From IMG/VR virus record IMGVR_UViG_3300025137_000351, positions 1 to 21,589 of that record: DNA of 21,589 nucleotides; one strand, written 5' to 3'. This DNA is from a virus. Numbering within the stretch: position 1 is the stretch's first letter; each line of letters starts with the position of its first letter. Shown piece after piece: positions 2,943 through 20,675 of the stretch. A program made the position numbers and the translations under genes. A model generated the notes under the pieces. That model was given only the letters and a program-made list of their open reading frames with translations. It did not search any database and had not been told where the DNA came from.

Positions 2943-3299
2943 ATGATAGAACTCATTTACTCAAGTCAGGAACACAAAGCAACACTAGACGTTTATATCA
3001 ATATGTGTAAAGAGTTCGCAAAAGACGTAAGTAGTAAAAATAAATATAATAATTACAAAGATGTAATGCAAGTTATATTTGAATATCACAATGGTTATGG
3101 TAATGGAGTTGAAGAAAACAACTTTTATGATTGGCTTATGATTATACCAATTAACTTATCAGTAGCAACAAATGGTTTTTTTGCTGGACTTGAAACAAAA
3201 CGTAACAGATCAGTTATTAGAGCGTATAAGGTAGTCCTTGAAGAAATGCTACAAGAAACAGTAGATAGAATAAGTTTATTAGAAATAACAAATGAATAA
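2943..3299 (+). CDS. Hypothetical phage protein
   Basis: 118 residues, not recognised. It looks alpha-helical, with a long C-terminal amphipathic helix (RSVIRAYKVVLEEMLQETVDRISLLE), a Tyr/Asn-rich middle, and no Cys cluster, signal peptide or clear membrane segment (IIPINLSVATNGFFAG is mildly hydrophobic). The start ATG follows AAA; the upstream 22-base gap contains no better in-frame start. It overlaps the sigma-like gene by 8 bases, so the two may be translationally coupled and functionally linked, for example as a regulator or partner, but that is only contextual. Confidence 0.6.
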   Translation: MIELIYSSQEHKATLDVYINMCKEFAKDVSSKNKYNNYKDVMQVIFEYHNGYGNGVEENNFYDWLMIIPINLSVATNGFFAGLETKRNRSVIRAYKVVLEEMLQETVDRISLLEITNE

Positions 3300-3876
3300 G
3301 ATATATCTTGAAATAGCTAAGCTTACAGATAAGTTTAGAACTATGTCATACAGATTAACGACAGATGAAAACAAGATAAACGAAGCAGTACAAGAACTTA
3401 TGTTGTATTTTATGCAAATGAATCCAACAACATTAAAGTCAATATACGATAAAGACGGAGTAGATGGTTTAACAAGATACGGAGCAGTAGCACTAAGACG
3501 AGCTTTGACAAGTAAGAGAAGTAATTTTTATTATAAGTATGAAAAGTATTATACACGTATTGATAGCTTTACTAACAATGTTAGCGTCTCTAGTAATCAT
3601 CCTGATTATACAGGGGATAATAATTATTATAAGAATCTATCAAACATTCCTAATGCAGAAATAGATAATGCTCAATTACATAAGTTAGAAATAATAGACA
3701 AAGAGTTAGACAAGCTAGATAATTGGTATGATAGAGAATTATTTAAGTTATATTACTATGAGGGCAATACATTAGACTCACTAGCTAAAAAGACTAAGAT
3801 AAGTAGAAATAGCTTATTTACAACAATAGACAAAGTAAGAACAATACTAAAAAATGAATTAAATGAAGATGTATGA
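3292..3876 (+). CDS. Putative phage sigma-70-like factor / late transcription regulator
   Basis: 194 residues. The C-terminal part (about 143-188, DNWYDRELFKLYYYEGNTLD then SLAKKTKISRNSLFTTIDKVRTILKN) has the layout of sigma region 4: an acidic helix, a short turn, then a helix-turn-helix with SLAKKTKISRNSL as first helix and turn. The N-terminal half (about 25-80, KINEAVQELMLYFMQMNP then ARG-free linker and ALRRALTSKRSNFYYKYEKYY) could be a diverged region 2. Overall size matches ECF-sized factors. Known: several phages encode sigma-like proteins that direct late transcription. Inference: it would recognise the repeated TCTATTATAT element upstream of the virion genes in this window. It could instead be a plain HTH regulator (ArpU/terminase-like HTH), since the region 2 match is weak. 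Confidence 0.6.
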   Translation: MNKIYLEIAKLTDKFRTMSYRLTTDENKINEAVQELMLYFMQMNPTTLKSIYDKDGVDGLTRYGAVALRRALTSKRSNFYYKYEKYYTRIDSFTNNVSVSSNHPDYTGDNNYYKNLSNIPNAEIDNAQLHKLEIIDKELDKLDNWYDRELFKLYYYEGNTLDSLAKKTKISRNSLFTTIDKVRTILKNELNEDV

Positions 3877-5632: not shown

Positions 5633-6015
5633 TGAAGTACGTCATAAACAATAGTGAAGACAAGCAAAAGTTATTTGATTATCTAAAAGAATTAGGTAAT
5701 GACTATATTGTAGATGTTAAGAAACAAAAAAATAATAGAAGCAAAATGCAGAACAATTACTATTGGGCGTGTATAGTACAACCATTAGCATCAGAGCTAG
5801 GTTACTTTCCTGATGAAATGCACGATACACTTAAAATAAAGTTTGCTAGTGAATGGCAAAGTATAGATATAAACGAAAGACAAATAGGATTACAAGTAGT
5901 AAACAGTACAGCTAAAATGAATACTAAAGACTTTGAAGTATATGCAGATCAAATAAGGATATGGGCATTGTATGAACTAGGTGTAAGACTAATGCTACCA
6001 AATGAATATGAGTAA
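5632..6015 (+). CDS. NinB-like recombination protein (tentative)
   Basis: 127 residues. The segment KKQKNNRSKMQNNYYWACIV (about 30-49), followed by GYFPDEMHDTLKIKF (about 57-71), matches a pattern I know from small phage proteins in which R-S-x2-QN-x-YYW precedes a helical PDEMHE/D-x-LK-x-KF. NinB (Orf) of lambda has a similar RS-x2-QN-R start, so a NinB-like fold is possible; Orf promotes RecA loading and recombination. The NinG-like gene upstream supports a recombination module. The assignment is by resemblance only. This is the last gene before the first TCTATTATAT element, and hence the end of the early block. Confidence 0.5.
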   Translation: MKYVINNSEDKQKLFDYLKELGNDYIVDVKKQKNNRSKMQNNYYWACIVQPLASELGYFPDEMHDTLKIKFASEWQSIDINERQIGLQVVNSTAKMNTKDFEVYADQIRIWALYELGVRLMLPNEYE

Positions 6016-6017
6016 TT

Positions 6018-6027
6018 TCTATTATAT
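6018..6027 (+). promoter_or_regulatory. TCTATTATAT element 1 (putative late promoter, terminase operon)
   Basis: First of five identical decamers in the window, 3 bases after the stop of the last early gene and 35 bases before the small terminase ATG. Followed by TAAAAAGA, an extension nearly shared with the copy at 17833. No -35-like TTG is visible upstream. Inferred -10-like core of a phage-specific promoter; the recurrence is directly visible, the function is not. Confidence 0.55.
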
Positions 6028-6042
6028 TAAAAAGATTAGATA

Positions 6043-6062
6043 ACTGAATAAAACTGAATAAA
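6043..6062 (+). repeat. Perfect tandem decamer in the small terminase leader
   Basis: ACTGAATAAA is repeated twice head to tail (6043-6052, 6053-6062) and the second copy abuts the ATG at 6063. It could be a protein-binding site (small terminases can bind DNA near their own gene), a translation leader element, or a recent slippage duplication. Confidence 0.5.
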
Positions 6063-6362
6063 ATGGACGGAAGAAGAAACAATAAAGGAACTAAAGGAAA
6101 CAAAGGAGGAAGACCAAGTAGGTCAGATGAACAAAAGCTTATAGAGAATCTAACACCTATGAATAGTTTAGCACTAGACTCACTACAACAAGGATTAGAA
6201 AAGAAAGAACAATGGGCAGTTAAGTTATTCTTTGAATACTTCTATGGTAAACCTCAACAAAGAGTTGATGTAACAACTAATGAAGAAAGTCTAAATATGC
6301 CTATCATTAACTTTGTAGAAACTGAACCTGTTATTAAACTTACAGGAATTGATACTGAATAA
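6063..6362 (+). CDS. terS: Terminase small subunit
   Basis: 99 residues. A basic Gly/Lys/Arg/Asn-rich start (RRNNKGTKGNKGGRPSRSDEQ) leads into a helical segment (LIENLTPMNSLALDSLQQGLEKKEQWAVKLFFEYFYGKPQQRVDVTT), the pattern of short small terminases in Bacteroidota phages, where the FEYFYGKPQQ-x-VDVTT stretch is characteristic. It lies directly before the large terminase, with which it overlaps by 14 bases. Known role: recognition of packaging sites on concatemeric DNA and regulation of the motor. The first gene of the putative late operon beginning at the 6018 element. Confidence 0.8.
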   Translation: MDGRRNNKGTKGNKGGRPSRSDEQKLIENLTPMNSLALDSLQQGLEKKEQWAVKLFFEYFYGKPQQRVDVTTNEESLNMPIINFVETEPVIKLTGIDTE

Positions 6363-7551
6363 GAAATACGAAGAACTATTTTCATCTAAAGCTAGATACT
6401 ACATTATCACAGGTGGTAGAGGATCGGGTAAGTCATTTGCCGTTACAGTCTTTCTTACACTACTAACAATGACAGAAGGCATTAGAGTATTGTTTACACG
6501 TTTTACAATGGTATCAGCTCACTTGTCAATCATACCTGAGTTCTTAGAAAAGATAATACTATTAGGATATGAGAATACCTTTAGTGTAAATAAAGCAGAG
6601 GTAGTCAATCTAAAGAATAAATCAGACATACTATTTAGAGGTATTAAAACATCAGCTGGTAATCAGACTGCAAGTCTAAAGTCATTACAAGGTGTAAGCA
6701 CTTGGGTACTTGATGAAGCAGAAGAACTTATTGATGAAGATATATTTGATACAATAGACTTAAGTATTAGAGAAAAGAATATACAGAATAGAATCATACT
6801 TATACTTAATCCTGTAACTAAAGAGCATTGGATATATAAAAGGTTTTTTGAAGACAAAGGAGTTGAAGCTGGTTTTAATGGTTTTAAAGACAATGTATGC
6901 TATATACATAGTACATACGAGGATAACAGAGAAAACCTCTCAGAGAGCTTCCTAGAGCGTATTAAGACTATAAAGCACAATAACTTTAAGAAGTATCAAC
7001 ACAAAATATTAGGTGGCTGGTTAGACAGAGCAGATGGTGTAGTATTTGATAATTGGAGTATAGGAGAATTTAATCCTGATAACTTACAAACATCTTGTGG
7101 TATGGACTTTGGATTCTCAGTTGATCCTGATTCATTAACTGAAGTTGCAATAGATAAAAAGAGACAAAGGATATATCTTAAAGAGCATATATACAAGAAT
7201 GGTTTGAAGTCAAATGAACTAGCACAGATAATACTTAACAAGGTAGGACAGAAGCTTATCATAGCAGACTCAGCAGAGCCAAGACTAATAGCAGACTTAA
7301 AGCATTTAGGAGTAAACATTAAACCTGTTAAGAAAGGAACTATTGAAAGTGGTATAACACGTATGCAAGACTATCACTTAGTAATAACACCTGAATCAAC
7401 TAACATAGCTAAAGAGCTAAATAATTATATATACAGCGACAAGGGTTCTAAATTATATCACGATTCATACAACCACGCAATAGACGGAATAAGGTATAAC
7501 GTAATCTACCATTTAGACAATCCAAACGCAGGAAGGTATTATGTACAATAA
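6349..7551 (+). CDS. terL: Terminase large subunit (packaging ATPase/nuclease)
   Basis: About 400 residues. Walker A GGRGSGKS is at residues 22-29 and Walker B TWVLDEAEE at 118-126 with Asp122/Glu123. A coupling-type LILNPVTKEHW is at 151-161. The C-terminal RNase H-like nuclease has Asp253 (MDFGFS), Asp307 (IADSAEP) and Asp379 (NHAIDGIRY). Known role: ATP-driven DNA translocation into the prohead and cutting of the concatemer. There is no ATG before the P-loop: the next in-frame Met is at residue 41. TTG at 6349 gives a start (LNKKYEELF) like that of related terminases, so TTG is the best start, though nearby CTG codons at 6322, 6328 and 6355 cannot be excluded. It overlaps the small subunit gene by 14 bases. 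Confidence 0.93.
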   Translation: MILNKKYEELFSSKARYYIITGGRGSGKSFAVTVFLTLLTMTEGIRVLFTRFTMVSAHLSIIPEFLEKIILLGYENTFSVNKAEVVNLKNKSDILFRGIKTSAGNQTASLKSLQGVSTWVLDEAEELIDEDIFDTIDLSIREKNIQNRIILILNPVTKEHWIYKRFFEDKGVEAGFNGFKDNVCYIHSTYEDNRENLSESFLERIKTIKHNNFKKYQHKILGGWLDRADGVVFDNWSIGEFNPDNLQTSCGMDFGFSVDPDSLTEVAIDKKRQRIYLKEHIYKNGLKSNELAQIILNKVGQKLIIADSAEPRLIADLKHLGVNIKPVKKGTIESGITRMQDYHLVITPESTNIAKELNNYIYSDKGSKLYHDSYNHAIDGIRYNVIYHLDNPNAGRYYVQ

Positions 7552-7631
7552 AAAAAGGGCAGCATAAAGCGTACCCTAATTATTAACTAAAACTAAGCAA
7601 AGATAACATTTTAAACTAAATATCAACAATT

Positions 7632-7641
7632 TCTATTATAT
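7632..7641 (+). promoter_or_regulatory. TCTATTATAT element 2 (putative late promoter, tail operon)
   Basis: Second identical decamer, in the 95-base gap between the large terminase and the tail chaperone gene. It is followed by AGTAT, as in the copy at 20183, and its last base is only 5 bases before the ATG at 7647. If it is a -10-like core, transcription would begin at or near the start codon. The rest of the gap (7552-7631) contains only a weak hairpin (AGGG 7556-7559 / CCCT 7574-7577) without a T tract. Confidence 0.55.
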
Positions 7642-7646
7642 AGTAT

Positions 7647-8246
7647 ATGAAGGTAAAGATTAAGAAGAAGGGAAAAGTAAAAGAGTTCAAGTTAATTAAT
7701 AAGTGGGAAGACGTAACATTAGAGAAGTGGATAAAACTTGTTGATTATCATAAACTTAGTAAAAGTAAAGAAGCTTTAGAAACTATAAAAGCATTATCTA
7801 ACATTCCTAAGAAGTTAATAAAGGAATTAGAATTAAAAGATATAGCTATTATAATGGGTAAAATTTCTGAGCTACAACAGAAGCAAGATAGTTCTTTAAA
7901 AAGGATAATTGAAATAGATGGTAAGAGATATGGGTTTCATCCTAATCTAGACTCTATCACGTTAGGAGAATGGGCTGACTTAGAGACTATGATTAAAATA
8001 GATATAGAGAAACAATTACCTGAAATAATGGCTATACTGTATAGACCACTAGTAGAAGAAAAGAATGATGTCTATACAATTAAAGCGTATGATGGAGATA
8101 TTAGAATACGAGCCGAACAGATGAAGCAGATGTCAGCTGAACAAGTGCAAAGTGCATTGGTTTTTTTTTACACTTTCGCCAACGAATCATTGGAGACTTT
8201 GCAATCATTTTTGACGGAACGGCTGAAGGAAACGAAGACGCAATAG
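7647..8246 (+). CDS. Tail assembly chaperone, short form (G-like)
   Basis: 199 residues from the ATG at 7647. A very basic start (KVKIKKKGKVKEFKL) leads into a Trp-containing helical domain (NKWEDVTLEKWIKLVDYHKL) and a middle with a WADLETMIKIDIEKQLPEIMAILYRP stretch, which resembles tail chaperone proteins of Bacteroidota phages. Near the end the frame crosses nine T residues (8161-8169) encoding VFFY, after which 25 more residues (TFANESLETLQSF and on) reach the stop at 8246. The same nine T allow -1 shifting into a longer open frame, as in lambda G/GT. Known role: the short form coats or guards the tape measure protein during tail assembly. Confidence 0.75.
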   Translation: MKVKIKKKGKVKEFKLINKWEDVTLEKWIKLVDYHKLSKSKEALETIKALSNIPKKLIKELELKDIAIIMGKISELQQKQDSSLKRIIEIDGKRYGFHPNLDSITLGEWADLETMIKIDIEKQLPEIMAILYRPLVEEKNDVYTIKAYDGDIRIRAEQMKQMSAEQVQSALVFFYTFANESLETLQSFLTERLKETKTQ

Positions 8247-9049: not shown

Positions 9050-9499
9050 ATGGCAGATTTAGTAACAACAATATCAGAAACAGTAACCTTGAATGGTTCA
9101 CTAAGAGGTTCTACAAACTCAGTAACCACGACAGGTATCAATGATGTATTTGAAAGAATAGTATTATGTACACAAGGACAACTAACAACAGTATGTTCTT
9201 TTGCAGCAAATCCTTACACTTCAGTAGGTGCTATTGATGTAGACCGAACAAAGTATGTGAGACTCACTAACTTAAGCACAACAGAGAATATAGAGGTAGC
9301 ATTTATTGGTACTGCTACATTATATCAAGTTTTGATTACTCCAGGCAATTCACACGTTTTAAGTCAAGCAGATGCAGTTCTTTTAGCAGAAGCAGATTTA
9401 GCTCCTAGTTTTGGTGCATTAGAGAATTTATCTAAAATAACAGTACAACCTGTAAGTACAACAGATGCTAGAGTTGAAGTATTCGTAGGTTTAGAGTAA
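9050..9499 (+). CDS. Small virion structural protein (unassigned)
   Basis: 149 residues, with almost no Lys/Arg beyond the ends and rich in Thr, Ser, Ala and Val, suggesting a beta-sandwich. The sequence has a repeated beta rhythm (VTTISETVTLNGSLRGSTNS, YVRLTNLSTTENIEVAFIGT, VQPVSTTDARVEVFVGLE). I do not recognise the family. Similar small beta-rich proteins in phage tail blocks serve as tail or decoration proteins. It starts ATGGC after an A-rich leader and its stop overlaps the next start as TAATG. No signal peptide or membrane segment. Likely part of the virion, exact role unknown. Confidence 0.55.
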   Translation: MADLVTTISETVTLNGSLRGSTNSVTTTGINDVFERIVLCTQGQLTTVCSFAANPYTSVGAIDVDRTKYVRLTNLSTTENIEVAFIGTATLYQVLITPGNSHVLSQADAVLLAEADLAPSFGALENLSKITVQPVSTTDARVEVFVGLE

Positions 9500-10026
9500 T
9501 GAAGACTGACAATATAGAAAAGTATTTAAATAGCTTTGGTAAGCAAGTAGTCAATAGAGCTAAGGGTAGTCTCCAAAAAGCAAAAGGAGGAGGTACAAAC
9601 TTAGAAAACTCTATAAGCTTTAAAGTAGTTGCTGATGCTGATGGTTTTTCAGTACAATTCTATATGGATAGCTATGGTACATTTGTAGATAAAGGTGTAT
9701 CAGGTAATAAACAAAAAAGAACTTTTAAAGACTATACAGGACAGACAATATCTAGTCCTTATAAGTACACAAATAAACAACCACCTCCAGGAATATTAGC
9801 TAAATGGATAAAGAAGAAAGGAATTAAAGGTAGAGATAAAAAGACAGGAAGGTTTATTAGTAATATGTCTTTAGCTTTTATAATGGGTAGAGCAATAAAA
9901 AGAGACGGAATACAAGGTATAAGTTTCTTTCAAAAACCTTTAGGATTAGGCTTAAAGCAATTTGGTAAAGACTTATTAGGTAATTTAAAAGAAGATATAA
10001 TAGAAGGACTAACAACAGTAAAATAA
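9499..10026 (+). CDS. HK97 gp10-like neck/tail completion protein (tentative)
   Basis: 175 residues. The N-terminal part is helical (NIEKYLNSFGKQVVNRAKGS) with a Lys/Gly-rich KGSLQKAKGGG, then a beta segment FSVQFYMDSYGTFVDKGVSG, the segment that in HK97-gp10-like proteins has a Y-x2-x-x-D/E-x-G pattern. A central loop rich in Lys/Pro (SPYKYTNKQPPPGILAKWIKKKGIKG) and a C-terminal region with a glycine-rich GISFFQKPLGLGLKQFG follow. Known role of gp10-like proteins: head-tail connection and tail attachment. Assignment by this motif and by position among tail genes; confidence is moderate. Stop/start overlap TAATG on both sides. Confidence 0.45.
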   Translation: MKTDNIEKYLNSFGKQVVNRAKGSLQKAKGGGTNLENSISFKVVADADGFSVQFYMDSYGTFVDKGVSGNKQKRTFKDYTGQTISSPYKYTNKQPPPGILAKWIKKKGIKGRDKKTGRFISNMSLAFIMGRAIKRDGIQGISFFQKPLGLGLKQFGKDLLGNLKEDIIEGLTTVK

Positions 10027-11432: not shown

Positions 11433-14113
11433 TGAGCATACAACTTATAATATATCCTCAATTTTATGATGGTACTAATCCAATAAGTGCTAACTTCACT
11501 CAATTTGTTGTAGATGGAATTAACTTTAATACTGTTAATACTTCTAATTCACAAGTAAATGTTACAGGTAATTTAGTACCGACAGCTATAAATACTGTAT
11601 CTCCTATGACATTAAACACTTGGTATAGATTTAGTCCAAATGCAAATTTTGTTACAGAATCTTCAGGAGTTTTAGGAATGGTATTAGATGTAGGTATAAT
11701 GCAGAAATTATCAAATTTGACTGTGGGTGTAACTTATGATATAATTTTAGACGCATCAGTTAACACATCAGGTATAAATTTTTATCAATATAATGGTAAC
11801 CTAATACAAAGCACATCAGTATTGACAGGAACAGGTTTACAATCTGTATCTTTTACTGCTTCTTCTACTGATGATATTATTGCGATACAATCAATAGGCG
11901 TATCACAAATATCAAGTATATCAGTACAGCAGTCTGTACAATCTCCTAGTGGTGCTATTCAATTATTAGGAAATGGACAACTAATAGTAGACCTTTATGA
12001 AGATGAAGATATACCATTGACTTTAAGTGTTGATGAATTTAAAAATGTAGCTGAACAAGTACAGTCTTATTCTAAAGCATTTAACTTACCAGCAACTAAA
12101 AGAAACAACCAAATCTTTGACAACATATTTGAAGTAACAAGAAACACTAATAGCTTTGTATTTAATCCTTATGTTAAAACACAATGTGAATTAAAGCAAG
12201 ATGGGTTCACTTTATTCCAAGGATATTTAAGACTTATAGATATACAAGATAAGTTAGGAGAAATAAGCTATAATGTAAATCTATATTCTGAAGCTATTGC
12301 ATTAGCTGATCTATTAGAGAATAGAACATTTAGCCAAATAGATTTTACAGAACTTACACATCCATATAACAAGCCAAATATCAAAGGTAGTTGGACAACA
12401 GGGGTTACTTATGATAATCCAGCTACAACAGTATATAGAACAAGTGATACAGTTAAATATCCTTTTGTAGATTGGACACATCAAATGTTAGTAGCAAATG
12501 GTGCAACAGGAAGTAACGCAACTCCTGACAATCCTGAATTAACTTCACTAGAACAAGCATTTAGACCTTTTTTAAATATTAAGTATTTAATAGATAGAAT
12601 ATTTGATGCAACACCATTTAGTTTTACAAGTAATTTCTTTGATACTGCTGATTTTAAAAAGTTGTATATGGATTTTAATTGGGGAGGAGACGAATCTCCT
12701 ATATCAGAAAATGAATATGAAGCTACTTGGCAATTTGGTACAGGAGCAGCTTCAAATATAGGTATCAATTATAATACTTATAAAGAATTAAGATTAATAC
12801 CTGATGGAGTTACAGGTGGTCAATCAGGTTCTAATGTTCCTCCTAATTATGATACTTCGACTTATATTATAACAGCAACAACTAACAATGAATTTTATAA
12901 TATTGATTATAAATTTCAATTTCAAAATAATAATTTACCTTCAGTTGAATTTGTTGGTGTTAGATGGGTACACACTACTGCAGCAGGGGTAGTAACACAA
13001 ATAAACTATAATCCTTTTTTACAAGTTATTGTTAATAATATATATCAAGGTAATTTACAAGTTATTTTAAATACAGGAGATACTTTGTCAGCTCAATTTA
13101 GAGCCACTACTAACGTAAGACAAGACGAAATACAAACTCCATCAGCATCTGTTGTATTTTTAGTATCTAATACTGCCGTAACTTCAGCAGCATTAAACAC
13201 ATTAAGAGGAGAGTTAGGACAATGGGAGTTCTTAAAAGGTATTATGACTATGTTTAATTTAGTTTCTATACCTGACAAATCTAATCCTAACAACATACTA
13301 ATAGAACCATACCAAGATATATTCTTAGAAAATGATGATACAACAGAATTAGATTGGACAGATAAAATAGATGTTTCAGAAATAAAGTTATTACCTCTGA
13401 CAGACTTAAATAAAAATACTATTTTTAAATTTGTTGAAGATGATGACGACTATGTATTTAATGTATATAAAAATTCTATATCAGGATTTTTGTATGGAAG
13501 TAAAAAATATGATGCTTCAGATTATACAATACTAAGTGGAACAGAAGAAATAGTAGCAGAACCTTTTGCAGCAACAGTACCAAAACCATTAATGTCTCAA
13601 TTTCCTGATTTTATAATTCCATCAATATATTCTTATAATGCAGATGATGGTACTTCTGAAGGTTTTGACAACAGTCCTAGAATAATGTTTAATGGTGGAG
13701 TTAAAACTTTAAATAGTTGTACTTACTACATACCACCACAAAATGGTTTCAGCTCAGAAAATGCAGATGACTTTTTACAATTTAGTCATTTAACAGATAT
13801 ACCAACTATAACAAATACACCTCCTTTAGTAACAGACACTAGAGATTTTCATTTTGGAGAATGTCAGCTTATACAACCTATTGGAAATAGTACACCTAAT
13901 AATCTATTTAATACTTATTGGCTACCTTATTTTAACGAGTTATATAATCCTGATACAAGAACTATGACTTTAAAGGTAAATCTAAAAGCTGGAGATATAA
14001 ACACTTTCAAATTTTATGATACTGTATTTATTAAAAATAGAAAATTTAGAGTAAACAAAATAAACTACAAACCAAACGACTTAGCAACAGTTGAATTTAT
14101 ACTTATACCATAA
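11432..14113 (+). CDS. Large tail/baseplate-type structural protein with N-terminal beta-sandwich
   Basis: 893 residues, the largest gene here. Residues about 20-175 form a beta-rich, Thr/Ser/Asn-rich segment resembling carbohydrate-binding modules. Residues about 180-270 (DLYEDEDIPLTLSVDEFKNV, EQVQSYSKAFNLPATKRNN, FNPYVKTQCELKQDGFTLFQ) follow a pattern common in large Bacteroidota phage structural proteins: a short strand, SKAF-x-LPAT, and an FQGYLRL-type strand. The C-terminal end has TMTLKVNLKAGDINTFKFYD and FIKNRKFRVNKINYKPNDLA, again a conserved-looking terminal beta domain. Likely a baseplate hub or distal tail protein; assigned by pattern, not by a known name. It lies before the fibre-like gene and the tape measure gene. 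Confidence 0.55.
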   Translation: MSIQLIIYPQFYDGTNPISANFTQFVVDGINFNTVNTSNSQVNVTGNLVPTAINTVSPMTLNTWYRFSPNANFVTESSGVLGMVLDVGIMQKLSNLTVGVTYDIILDASVNTSGINFYQYNGNLIQSTSVLTGTGLQSVSFTASSTDDIIAIQSIGVSQISSISVQQSVQSPSGAIQLLGNGQLIVDLYEDEDIPLTLSVDEFKNVAEQVQSYSKAFNLPATKRNNQIFDNIFEVTRNTNSFVFNPYVKTQCELKQDGFTLFQGYLRLIDIQDKLGEISYNVNLYSEAIALADLLENRTFSQIDFTELTHPYNKPNIKGSWTTGVTYDNPATTVYRTSDTVKYPFVDWTHQMLVANGATGSNATPDNPELTSLEQAFRPFLNIKYLIDRIFDATPFSFTSNFFDTADFKKLYMDFNWGGDESPISENEYEATWQFGTGAASNIGINYNTYKELRLIPDGVTGGQSGSNVPPNYDTSTYIITATTNNEFYNIDYKFQFQNNNLPSVEFVGVRWVHTTAAGVVTQINYNPFLQVIVNNIYQGNLQVILNTGDTLSAQFRATTNVRQDEIQTPSASVVFLVSNTAVTSAALNTLRGELGQWEFLKGIMTMFNLVSIPDKSNPNNILIEPYQDIFLENDDTTELDWTDKIDVSEIKLLPLTDLNKNTIFKFVEDDDDYVFNVYKNSISGFLYGSKKYDASDYTILSGTEEIVAEPFAATVPKPLMSQFPDFIIPSIYSYNADDGTSEGFDNSPRIMFNGGVKTLNSCTYYIPPQNGFSSENADDFLQFSHLTDIPTITNTPPLVTDTRDFHFGECQLIQPIGNSTPNNLFNTYWLPYFNELYNPDTRTMTLKVNLKAGDINTFKFYDTVFIKNRKFRVNKINYKPNDLATVEFILIP

Positions 14114-16633: not shown

Positions 16634-16656
16634 AAATCAAATAAATATTAATTAAA

Positions 16657-16666
16657 TCTATTATAT
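16657..16666 (+). promoter_or_regulatory. TCTATTATAT element 3 (putative late promoter, pre-head unit)
   Basis: Identical decamer in the 36-base gap after the tape measure gene, ending 3 bases before the ATG at 16670 (the bases between are AAT). No other recognisable signal is seen in the gap. Confidence 0.55.
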
Positions 16667-16669
16667 AAT

Positions 16670-17215
16670 ATGCCTTGTACAAAATGTGAGAACGGAAAAT
16701 ACAAATGGGGAAAGACAGGAGAATGTAAATATGACTCCAAAGAAGAATGTGAAAAAGCTAATCCAAAAAAATATAGTAAAATGAAACCAACACCACTAGG
16801 AAAGAAGTCGTATGAAGAATACGAAAAAGAATTAAAAGAATTTAACTTAAGTAAAGTTGAAAGAGTTGAGTTATCTTCTATAAAAGAATTAGAAAAACAA
16901 ATTAAAGGTATGAAAAGTGCTTTAAAATATGTTGATGCAAGAATAGATGAAGGAGATGAATATATAAAAGAATTAGTAAAATATAGAAATTTTTCTTTAG
17001 ATGTATATTCTAAATTAATTAAATTAAAACCAAAAATGCAAGAAGTAGCTCAAGAAAAATTAAATAATTTTGAAAAAGCTGCAAAAGAATTAGGTGTTTC
17101 AGTTAATAGTGTACCTCAAGTTAAAGAAATAAAAGGGTTAATTACTGATACTGAAAGTCAAATGAAAAGAACAAAAACTTTAATAAAAAGATTTGAACAA
17201 CAAGGATTAAAATAA
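16670..17215 (+). CDS. Cys-rich coiled-coil protein between tail and head genes
   Basis: 181 residues. The N-terminal 28 residues have four Cys in the pattern C3-x2-C6-x12-C19-x7-C27 with a KYKWGKTGEC segment, which may bind a metal. A Pro/Lys-rich linker (PKKYSKMKPTPLGKKSYEEY) follows, then two long helical stretches (about 55-90 and 110-175) rich in Lys, Glu and Leu, probably coiled coils. I recall such an N-terminus in flavobacterial phages but not a function. It is the first gene after a TCTATTATAT element and directly precedes the prohead protease, so a head-assembly role (for example with protease and scaffold) is likely by context. Start/stop spacing to the protease is 1 base. Confidence 0.55.
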   Translation: MPCTKCENGKYKWGKTGECKYDSKEECEKANPKKYSKMKPTPLGKKSYEEYEKELKEFNLSKVERVELSSIKELEKQIKGMKSALKYVDARIDEGDEYIKELVKYRNFSLDVYSKLIKLKPKMQEVAQEKLNNFEKAAKELGVSVNSVPQVKEIKGLITDTESQMKRTKTLIKRFEQQGLK

Positions 17216-17216
17216 T

Positions 17217-17831
17217 ATGAAAGAAACTAAAATAGTAGAATTAGTAATAGCAGATGATAGTCAAGAACTAGCTATTGATGCTATATCGCTCGTTCACAGC
17301 CCTGCGATAGAATCTGACTTTGTATTCTTTGGTAAAGAGAAAAACAACTTGACATTCGCAAAGGTAGATGAAGAAAAGCGTATGCTAGTAAGTCCAGCTT
17401 TAATACCTAACAAGCAAATCTTTAGATATGATCCTAACACAGACTCTGAGTATTATGTTTACTTTAGTCCTGAAACAGTTAGAAAAGCTAGTGAGTTATA
17501 TTTAAAACATAACAATCATCATAAAGCTACTTACGAACATAAAGACAGAGTATCAGGAGTTCTAACAGTAGAATCTTGGATTAAGGAAGGAGATAGTGAT
17601 AAGTCTAAGATGTATGGTTACGACTTACCTAACGGCACTTGGTTCGTTAAAATGAAGATAGAGAACGAAGACTTATGGAATAAAATAAAAGAAGGAGAAC
17701 TTAAAGGACTTTCAATAGAAGGTTATTTCACTAATAAATTTGAAGAAATGCAAAAACAAAAGCCAACAGACCAAGAAATACTAGAAGCTTTAAACGAAAT
17801 AATAAACGAAAATCAAATAAATTCAAAATAA
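17217..17831 (+). CDS. Prohead protease, XkdF / Peptidase S78_2-like
   Basis: 204 residues. The opening AISLVHSPAIESDFVFFG, then PALIPNKQIFRYDP, YVYFSPETVRKASELYL, ATYEHKDRVSGVLTVESWI and KGLSIEGYF follow the pattern of the XkdF-type serine protease domain. Candidate catalytic residues are His108 (in YEHKD) and Ser166 (in GLSIEG), with acidic Glu119 and Asp126 nearby. The gene order protease, scaffold, major capsid protein supports this. Known role: cleavage of scaffold and capsid N-terminal parts during head maturation. The C-terminal 30 residues are a helical acidic tail. It ends 2 bases before element 4's gap. Confidence 0.75.
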   Translation: MKETKIVELVIADDSQELAIDAISLVHSPAIESDFVFFGKEKNNLTFAKVDEEKRMLVSPALIPNKQIFRYDPNTDSEYYVYFSPETVRKASELYLKHNNHHKATYEHKDRVSGVLTVESWIKEGDSDKSKMYGYDLPNGTWFVKMKIENEDLWNKIKEGELKGLSIEGYFTNKFEEMQKQKPTDQEILEALNEIINENQINSK

Positions 17832-17832
17832 A

Positions 17833-17842
17833 TCTATTATAT
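17833..17842 (+). promoter_or_regulatory. TCTATTATAT element 4 (putative late promoter, scaffold/capsid)
   Basis: Identical decamer starting 2 bases after the protease stop and 13 bases before the scaffold ATG at 17856. Followed by TAAAAAAGA, nearly the extension of element 1. Drives, by inference, the scaffold and major capsid genes up to the hairpin at 19475. Confidence 0.55.
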
Positions 17843-17855
17843 TAAAAAAGAAACT

Positions 17856-18527
17856 ATGGACATTAAAGAACAAATATTAGTAGCACTAGGTCTAAACAAA
17901 GACGAAAGTGTTAAACTTGAATGGCAAGCAAAGTCAGAAGATGGCACTATTTTCGTATCAACTGCTGAAGAATTAGCATCAGGAGTAGATATATCTGTAC
18001 TCACAGAGGACGGAACGACTATCCTTTTACCTATTGGTACTTACAAGACTGCTGAGGGTGTAACTTTTAGAGTTGAAGAAGAAGGTGTAGTTGCTGAAGT
18101 TATGGAAACAGAAACTGAAGAAGAAGTAGAAGCTACTGAAGACAAAGAAGAAATGGCAGAAGAAGCAGATGTAGCTGATTGGGAAGGTATGGAGAAAAGA
18201 ATACAAAACCTAGAAGATGCAGTTGCTAAACTTAAAGAAGACAAAGTAGGAGGAGACGAAGAAGTAGAAGAACTAGCTGAAGAAGTAACAGAGCCAGGTA
18301 CTAATCCTAAGTCTATTAAAACAACTGAAGTAGTTGAATTTTCAGCAGAAGAAGAATTAGAGAAGTTAAAGTCTGAAAACGAAAAACTTAAAACTGAATT
18401 AGCTAAATCACCAGCTGACTCTCCAATTAATACAAATAAATTTAGCTCAGAAAGAAAAGCTCTATCAAGAAAAGAATACAGCAAACTATCTAAGCAAGAA
18501 AGATTTTTATACAACTTAAACAAATAA
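17856..18527 (+). CDS. Scaffold-like acidic protein
   Basis: 223 residues. A beta-rich N-terminal part (about 1-80, EGVTFRVEEEGVVAEVMETE) is followed by a very acidic stretch of Glu repeats (about 83-115), a Leu/Ile heptad-like coiled coil (MEKRIQNLEDAVAKLKEDKV, about 110-130), a second acidic part, another coiled coil (EEELEKLKSENEKLKTELAK) and a basic Ser/Lys-rich end (RKALSRKEYSKLSKQER). This layout, an acidic helical middle with a basic tail, is typical of scaffold proteins, and position between protease and major capsid protein supports it. Known role: guiding capsid assembly and then being removed, often by protease. It is followed by a 19-base gap to the capsid gene. Confidence 0.7.
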   Translation: MDIKEQILVALGLNKDESVKLEWQAKSEDGTIFVSTAEELASGVDISVLTEDGTTILLPIGTYKTAEGVTFRVEEEGVVAEVMETETEEEVEATEDKEEMAEEADVADWEGMEKRIQNLEDAVAKLKEDKVGGDEEVEELAEEVTEPGTNPKSIKTTEVVEFSAEEELEKLKSENEKLKTELAKSPADSPINTNKFSSERKALSRKEYSKLSKQERFLYNLNK

Positions 18528-18530
18528 TAA

Positions 18531-18544
18531 TTTAAAATTTTAAA
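18531..18544. repeat. Perfect 14-base palindrome in the capsid gene leader
   Basis: TTTAAAATTTTAAA ends two bases before the ATG at 18547. It is perfectly self-complementary. As an all-A/T leader it fits strong initiation in Bacteroidota, and the palindrome could be a chance result; it could also be a regulator site or a structured leader. Confidence 0.4.
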
Positions 18545-18546
18545 AA

Positions 18547-19461
18547 ATGGCGTTTACTACAACATCAAACTTTTCTGGAAAAGCAGCAGGTTTTTATATC
18601 TCAGCAGCTTTAAAAGAAGCAAAATCACTTGACTTTCTTAATGTAATAGAAAATATCAAGTTCAAATCTAATATTCAACGTATGGCTGGATCAGGAGTAG
18701 TTGCTGATGCAACTTGTGACTTTACAGGAGCAGGTACTTTAGCACTTACTGAGAAAGTATTAGAACCTAAAAACTTACAAATCAATTTAGACCTTTGTAA
18801 ATCTACTCTTTTAGATTCTTGGGAAGCTCTACAAATGAGAGCAGGAGCAGGAGCACCACCTCCAGCATCTTTTGATGACTATGTTATCTCTTATATGGGA
18901 GAAATCATTGCACAAGCAACAGAAGAAAGCATTTGGGAAGGTACAGCAGTAGCAGGGAAATTCAACGGATTCTTAGGAGCTGCAACAGGTCTTTTATTAC
19001 CAGGAGTTGATGCAACAGTTGTTCAATCATCAGCTTCAGCAGCTTATGTAGCAGGTAACATTATAGCTAACCTACAAACTTTAACAGCTGATATGGCTGC
19101 TAATATTTCAGCAGTATTAAGAAAAGAAGACTTACATATATATATGAGTCCTAAAACTTATGCTTTATATATCTCAGCAGTATCTACATTAGGATATGTT
19201 AATGCTTACAATATGAATGGAGATTATGAGCCTGTATTTGAAGGTTACAAAATTGCAGTTTGTCCAGGAATGGCAGATAACCAATTAGTAGCAGCTCAAA
19301 AATCTAACTTATTCTTCGGTACTGACTTATTATCAGATGCTACAAGAATAACATTGATGGATATGGCTCAGTTAGATGGTTCTGACAATATGAGATTAGT
19401 TGCAAGATACTCAGCAGGTGTTCAAACAGGAGTAGGAGCTGATATCGTAAGACAGTCGTAA
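18547..19461 (+). CDS. Major capsid protein
   Basis: 304 residues. Begins MAFTTTSNFSGKAAGFYISA, with a helix-rich N-terminal arm, a central TGLLLPGVDATVVQS loop region and a C-terminal half with the strand/helix rhythm of HK97-type capsids (HIYMSPKTYALYISAVSTLG, YKIAVCPGMADNQLVAAQKS, NLFFGTDLLSDATRI). Order protease, scaffold, this gene and its length, codon richness and A-rich leader all agree with the major capsid protein. Known role: building the icosahedral shell; maturation may involve cleavage by the upstream protease. A stem-loop follows 13 bases after its stop. The only doubt is the fold, which I infer rather than see. Confidence 0.8.
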   Translation: MAFTTTSNFSGKAAGFYISAALKEAKSLDFLNVIENIKFKSNIQRMAGSGVVADATCDFTGAGTLALTEKVLEPKNLQINLDLCKSTLLDSWEALQMRAGAGAPPPASFDDYVISYMGEIIAQATEESIWEGTAVAGKFNGFLGAATGLLLPGVDATVVQSSASAAYVAGNIIANLQTLTADMAANISAVLRKEDLHIYMSPKTYALYISAVSTLGYVNAYNMNGDYEPVFEGYKIAVCPGMADNQLVAAQKSNLFFGTDLLSDATRITLMDMAQLDGSDNMRLVARYSAGVQTGVGADIVRQS

Positions 19462-20158: not shown

Positions 20159-20182
20159 AAAGGCAAATAAAAACGGACTTTT

Positions 20183-20192
20183 TCTATTATAT
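20183..20192 (+). promoter_or_regulatory. TCTATTATAT element 5 (putative late promoter after a terminator)
   Basis: Identical decamer, 25 bases after the terminator and 3 bases before the ATG at 20196; followed by AGT, as in element 2. A promoter directly after a terminator is the arrangement expected of a new transcription unit, which is the strongest contextual support that the element is a promoter. Confidence 0.6.
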
Positions 20193-20195
20193 AGT

Positions 20196-20675
20196 ATGAT
20201 ACAAGCAATAACAGAGACTAATCTAACAACTTATTTACAAACTGAAGACAATCGTATCAACACTTCAGTAGATTCTAGTAAGATAAGATATTTAGTAAAA
20301 TTTACTAATGATATGGATAAGTCAGTTCAATATGCTTATTCTAACGTACATTTAGTTTACAACAGATATACTAAATTTAATTTTACTTATAATGCTACTC
20401 CTGATGTTTATACAGGTTATATAAATTTCTTACCAGCTGGATATTGGAAGTATGAAGTTTACGAAGTTAGCTGGACAGGAGCAGTAGCAATAAGTTCAGG
20501 AAATGCACCAATAAATGAGAATGACGTTTTACCTGTTGCACCTACTCACGGAATAGTGCAAGGGTTAGTTACTAAGGGTAAGATGTATGTAGCAGAGAAA
20601 GACGGAACACAACAAGTACAATACAATGAATATGAGCCAAGCTCAGGAACAAATTATATATATTACGGACAATAA
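20196..20675 (+). CDS. Virion-type structural protein (unassigned)
   Basis: 159 residues, rich in Tyr, Thr and Asn and beta-like (YSNVHLVYNRYTKFNFTY, YTGYINFLPAGYWKYEVYEV). Near the C-terminus it contains GIVQGLVTKGKMYVAEKDGT, a pattern I have seen in small structural proteins of Bacteroidota phages. No catalytic motif, membrane segment or signal peptide is visible. It opens the transcription unit following the terminator and precedes fibre-type genes; a tail or head completion role is a reasonable guess. Function not established. Confidence 0.55.
   Translation: MIQAITETNLTTYLQTEDNRINTSVDSSKIRYLVKFTNDMDKSVQYAYSNVHLVYNRYTKFNFTYNATPDVYTGYINFLPAGYWKYEVYEVSWTGAVAISSGNAPINENDVLPVAPTHGIVQGLVTKGKMYVAEKDGTQQVQYNEYEPSSGTNYIYYGQ

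Follow-up and report, generated by a model that had tools for sequence, protein, structure and literature searches.

A predicted ECF-like phage sigma factor and five bipartite candidate late promoters in an uncultured virus

The DNA analysed here, hereafter the window, is a stretch of 21,589 bases from an uncultured virus record (IMGVR_UViG_3300025137_000351). It carries a sigma-like gene, the terminase genes and a head gene block, along with five copies of a short element, each of which precedes a gene (Table 1). The ATG of the sigma-like gene overlaps the stop codon of the preceding ORF. A conserved 118-aa ORF (2943-3299), which overlaps the sigma start codon, also precedes the sigma gene in relative L183 (2898-3254); profile searches against Pfam and PHROG gave no significant family match for it, and its product is a candidate sigma partner or anti-sigma factor.

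Table 1. Coordinates, in the window, of the sigma-like gene, the putative late promoters and the genes that these would serve.
Feature	Position	Strand	Details
Phage sigma factor CDS (predicted)	3292..3876	+	194 aa; ECF-like, regions 2 and 4 joined by a linker
Sigma region 2-like domain, residues 1-75	3292..3516	+	TIGR02937 from residue 20; AF2 pLDDT about 90; region 2 of SigH/SigW/SigR/SigL aligns with the family profile
Sigma region 4-like helix-turn-helix domain, residues 126-190	3667..3861	+	VIA-align to region 4 of SigF and sigmaE
Putative late promoter 1	5999..6027	+	-35-like CAAATGAAT 5999-6007; -10-like CTATTATAT 6019-6027; score 30.4; same site in relatives; small terminase ATG at 6063, 35 nt downstream
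Small and large terminase genes, first served by putative promoter 1	6063..7551	+	TerL phrog_3717 E=5e-43
Putative late promoter 2	7613..7641	+	-35-like AAACTAAAT 7613-7621; -10-like CTATTATAT 7633-7641; score 36.7; ATG at 7647, 5 nt downstream
First gene served by putative promoter 2	7647..8246	+	directly 3' of the large terminase
Putative late promoter 3	16638..16666	+	-35-like CAAATAAAT; -10-like CTATTATAT; score 24.6; ATG at 16670, 3 nt downstream, ahead of the head protease block
Head block, putative promoters 3 and 4	16670..19461	+	ORF at 16670, head maturation protease 17217, ORF at 17856, virion protein 18547
Putative late promoter 4	17814..17842	+	-35-like CAAATAAAT; -10-like CTATTATAT; score 24.4; ATG at 17856, 13 nt downstream; gene precedes the virion protein gene
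Putative late promoter 5	20164..20192	+	-35-like CAAATAAAA; -10-like CTATTATAT; score 23.6; ATG at 20196, 3 nt downstream

Searches with the single protein sequence were nearly blind: no Pfam sigma model exceeded its own cut-off (Sigma70_r4 and UPF0122 both appeared sub-threshold) and tblastn against 50,697 phage records returned no match. The NCBIfam model TIGR02937 (sigma70-ECF) aligned with residues 20-190 (model positions 19-165 of 165, E=1.2e-8), at a score of 34.8, which is below the curated cut-off of 42.9. A profile search of the PDB with a narrow alignment (A1) returned no sigma factor. What overcame this was a broad, combined alignment of 34 sequences (A3), which joins the window-type proteins, of which IMG/VR holds at least 241 relatives, to a second group reached via the terminase. 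With the A3 profile, a PDB search retrieved SigH, SigW and SigL (E=7e-8 to 9e-6) and aligned the region 2.2-like motif NEAVQELML (residues 30-38) with region 2 of solved sigma factors; TIGR02937 matched all 34 of the diverse family members in the alignment. The same family includes gp33 of Nonlabens phage P12024S, annotated as 'containing Sigma-70 region 2' (A3 profile E=8e-42, A3 itself including close relatives of gp33): BLASTP gave no significant alignment between the window protein and gp33, and the two are connected by intermediates that match both the window-type and the gp33 profiles, such as L138 (3.6e-7 and 6.5e-9). We also observed matches of phrog_31712, whose function is unannotated, to 9 of these 34 proteins (best E=7e-112); this PHROG is probably a family of sigma factors.

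The AlphaFold2 model of the window protein (mean pLDDT 75) displays two confident helical domains, at residues 1-75 and 126-190, and neither a region 1.1 nor a region 3. The C-terminal domain is built of helices 126-139, 145-155, 161-168 and 172-189, in agreement with the region-4-like helix-turn-helix that the initial annotation had placed at about residues 143-188; the N-terminal domain, which is also covered by the TIGR02937 match, gives substance to what that annotation had called a possible weak region 2. Between the two lies a linker of about 50 residues (roughly 76-125), the usual limit for ECF sigma factors, of which residues 92-125 are predicted to be disordered, and the model gives no relative placement of the domains. 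The best 50 Foldseek matches in the PDB were all sigma factors, the top one being SigL (E=3e-4). VIA-align yielded Z=10.0 with SigL, 9.7 with region 4 of SigF (8jzt; rmsd 1.7 A over 63 residues) and 9.3 with region 4 of sigmaE on -35 DNA (2h27). Note that Z values of such size are modest on their own for helical proteins and that the near-uniform list of sigma factors counts more. An isolated helix-turn-helix, which had been named beforehand as an outcome that would speak against a sigma factor, is thus not what the model presents. Computation places the window protein in the sigma family, and the profiles and the predicted fold together indicate that it is a two-domain, ECF-like factor of the sigma-70 type, with regions 2 and 4 only.

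The window contains exactly five sense copies of TCTATTATAT (at 6018, 7632, 16657, 17833 and 20183), all of them 3' of the sigma ORF, as the initial annotation had claimed. When both strands are counted, six copies were found against 0.45 expected, a number that none of 100 shuffles reached. The antisense copy, at 9995-10004, lies inside ORF 9499-10026, is not among the top sites of the matrix described below and is a chance match. Alignment of non-redundant copies revealed a second box, AA[A/C]TAAAT, spanning positions -18 to -11 relative to the first T, followed by a T-rich stretch and then by CTATTATAT. The element, first described as lacking a -35, is consequently bipartite, with the layout AA[A/C]TAAAT - 11 bp - CTATTATAT and a fixed spacing between the boxes. 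A bipartite matrix trained on other phages, with the window left out, was used to scan both strands: exactly five sites were found, with scores ranging from 23.6 to 36.7, and the next best site on either strand scored 1.5.

The leader between the terminase element and its ATG (6028-6062) contains a direct repeat (ACTGAATAAA) and is devoid of inverted repeat; in L031 and L001, the same leader, about 30 nt long, contains an inverted repeat (GATTGAATAATCAATC or TTGATTAATCAA). These terminase-leader repeats could possibly be an operator or a hairpin controlling the terminase.

The element is not peculiar to the window. Together with its one-base shift TTCTATTATA, TCTATTATAT is the 10-mer most widely shared upstream of ORFs, being present in 62 of the 80 relatives' loci. 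Nearly all sense copies in the relatives (107 of 109) stand ahead of an ATG, as compared to 2 of 28 antisense copies. The distance to this ATG is 3-6 nt for 63 copies and 30-35 nt for 38, the others lying at 11-20 or 45 nt. The two relatives of nearly genome length (28,998 and 29,342 bases) each have five strong matrix sites, four of which precede the same genes in both (post-TerL, MKVKIKK type; MPC...; MDIKEQ...; MIQAIT...); the fifth precedes the small terminase in one and the MKQQVK gene in the other.

We then compared the type of sigma protein with the type of element, in loci picked by their terminase (TerL) alone. A sigma family member was found upstream of the terminase in all 25 loci with more than 5.5 kb of upstream sequence, making the gene a fixture of the lineage. 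The element stands ahead of an ATG in 17 of 17 loci with a window-type sigma and in 0 of 29 loci with another sigma, so that the co-variation called for by the initial proposal is present. For the idea that relatives devoid of the gene should also lack the element, hardly any cases are available, because close relatives always have the sigma; RAP44, Harreka_1 and the examined part of BS-TP2, three cultured phages whose terminases are more distant, carry neither sigma nor bipartite element. Two long records that seemed to combine the element with no sigma gene (L150 and L163) proved to have the gene elsewhere, outside the fetched piece. The A3 profile detected a sigma in each of three apparently sigma-less relatives (L120, L121 and L122), which were therefore unusable as negative controls. 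In the other branches, the P12024-type sigma accompanies AAAAC-N16/17-CGTTAATAT, and further sigma types have their own sequences near late-gene ATGs, e.g. ACGTTTATA, GTTATATAAGT and GTATTATATAAAT. The P12024 branch has the letters of ECF promoters, whose AAC-type -35 and CGT-type -10 boxes stand 16-17 nt apart (AAAAC-N16/17-CGTTA), and the window branch has AA[A/C]TAAAT and CTATTATAT: the layout is the same, the letters differ. A partial Mantel test gave r=0.20 (p=0.001) for sigma versus promoter given TerL and 0.22 for TerL given sigma; since the phylogenies of the sigma and of its target gene, the terminase, are strongly collinear, most of the pairing statistics are explained by shared descent.

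The reading that we favor, to which we assign a probability of about 0.86, is that the phage sigma factor directs the host core RNA polymerase to the five bipartite promoters ahead of late genes, those for terminase and head among them. Three other readings were weighed against it. In the first, which we regard as unlikely, the protein is a late activator with a sigma-4 domain only, of the RinA/ArpU/LtrC type (PHROG 36), that recruits the host holoenzyme near the element, sigma not being replaced. Genes for such regulators sit just ahead of the terminase in such phages, and so does the window gene; moreover, among the PHROGs, the window protein best matches phrog_36 ('transcriptional regulator'; E=5e-5 over residues 131-188). 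This match is partial, however, covering profile positions 129-185 of 220 and not the full length of a RinA/ArpU-type protein, whereas both the profile and the model show an N-terminal region 2, and the family profile aligns over both regions with gp47 of phage 7-11, a remote homologue (hhalign E=6e-7, 130 columns). The AT-rich -10-like sequence also differs from the consensus of the host polymerase, TTTG/TANNTTTG (PMC6847099). This last point bears on a second reading as well, in which genuine promoters are indeed present but are recognised by host sigma A or some other factor, the sigma-like protein having its targets elsewhere. The pairing statistics, which are not fully separable from shared descent, leave some room for it, but TTTG, present in the host -7 box, is missing from the element, relative L182 instead has perfect host-type promoters ahead of its early cluster (two, TTG...TANNTTTG, at 12580-12660, the cluster including the sigma gene), and no second sigma-like protein was noticed among the window ORFs that were profile-searched; we consider this reading very improbable. 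Finally, that TCTATTATAT is a signal for translation initiation or RNA processing, with neither promoter function nor tie to the sigma protein, is hardly credible: the element often lies 3-6 nt ahead of an ATG, but we rejected this reading because the distance to the ATG varies, with one mode at 3-6 nt and another at about 32 nt, whereas the upstream box keeps a constant distance; the element is also found on just five genes per genome and varies in sequence with the type of sigma.

Assuming that the phage sigma factor does direct the host core polymerase to these promoters, we infer physical recognition, late timing, use of the host core enzyme and start sites as follows. The early genes would be transcribed by the host holoenzyme, and the sigma factor, produced together with the replication genes, would bind the host core RNA polymerase and then open the late promoters, its region 4 reading the upstream box and its region 2 the -10-like CTATTATAT. 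A scan for host-type promoters (TTTG/TANNTTTG) revealed no overall sense-strand enrichment, so that early promoters such as those of L182 are suggested at most. In Flavobacterium johnsoniae, 4-5 nt separate the transcription start from the 8-nt -7 element (PMC6847099); in phage 7-11, starts are located 6-9 bp from the promoter element (PMC8948821). According to either rule, when the ATG is located 3-6 nt past CTATTATAT, transcription would begin on this codon or right next to it. As three of the five window start codons lie 3-5 nt past the -10, leaderless or nearly leaderless mRNAs are expected; the two other promoters would give short leaders. Given that 87% of the predicted leaders of F. johnsoniae are longer than 10 nt (PMC6847099), late mRNAs of this kind, if indeed leaderless, would be exceptional within its phylum.

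The host is taken to be of the Bacteroidetes type because the nearest cultured relative, P12024S (TerL 64% identical), infects a marine flavobacterium. Two database labels deserve mention here. A 29 kb phage of the group, L081 (PBGL02000003.1), is found inside a MAG labelled Euryarchaeota archaeon; this label is probably a binning error, an archaeal host being less likely. The terminase match to OQ791282.1, 'Shigella phage Henu10', has the same identity and the same coordinates as that to Riemerella phage PT15, which makes the Shigella label look doubtful. On a broader scale, we see an even chance that an entire Bacteroidetes phage lineage, of which this terminase is the mark, drives its virion genes via nearly leaderless mRNAs from diversifying, matched sigma/promoter pairs. 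If such lineage-wide pairs are true, the code of sigma recognition could be read directly from sequence. The analysis suggests how a large and almost uncultured group of phages from marine and other Bacteroidetes-type hosts could seize transcription from an unusual host polymerase. It also provides names for genes so far devoid of annotation, PHROG 31712 among them, and lets late operons be marked by a simple rule. The many mutually distinct natural pairs, one of them in a cultured phage (P12024S), could be used to study promoter choice by sigma factors and as orthogonal expression tools for Bacteroidetes.

We found no earlier description of such a sigma/promoter pair in Bacteroidetes phages in the open-access literature, nor any published description of the P12024S promoters. 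The claim that the pairing is undescribed for this type of phage appears to hold for the setting, the family and the nearly leaderless design, and not for the strategy, which is known from 7-11 gp47 and phiEco32 gp36. What appears new is the family and its seemingly universal presence in this Bacteroidetes-type lineage, together with the nearly leaderless arrangement and the large number of natural sigma/promoter pairs; that a phage late sigma factor can act on bipartite promoters is already known from 7-11. There, gp47 (SaPh711_gp47) is an experimentally proven late sigma factor that directs the host core polymerase to late promoters of sequence GTAAtg-(16)-aCTA (PMC8948821). Like the window protein, it is encoded by a phage, is ECF-like, with regions 2 and 4, and has bipartite sites before late genes, with about 16 nt separating the promoter boxes; unlike the window phage, 7-11 is an enterobacterial phage, facing a sigma-70 host polymerase and using other box sequences, and the consulted passages report no nearly leaderless arrangement for it (PMC8948821). 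Similarly, gp36 of phiEco32 is a phage sigma that drives middle/late genes, but from a single-element promoter, tAATGTAtA (PMC8948821); it is noted as of the ECF type in the 7-11 record and, unlike the window sigma, lacks region 4 homology. Bacterial ECF factors (SigW, SigL, sigmaE) have the two-domain, sigma-2/sigma-4 layout of the window protein, and their promoters have AAC at -35 and CGT at -10 (PMC8103513). The window sigma differs from them in that no anti-sigma partner was identified, its own gene is not preceded by the element and its targets would be phage morphogenesis genes. A further counterpart is P12024S, in which gp33 shares the position upstream of the terminase and equivalent elements lie about 3 nt ahead of the ATGs, with a sequence of their own that closely matches the AAC/CGT hallmarks of bacterial ECF promoters.
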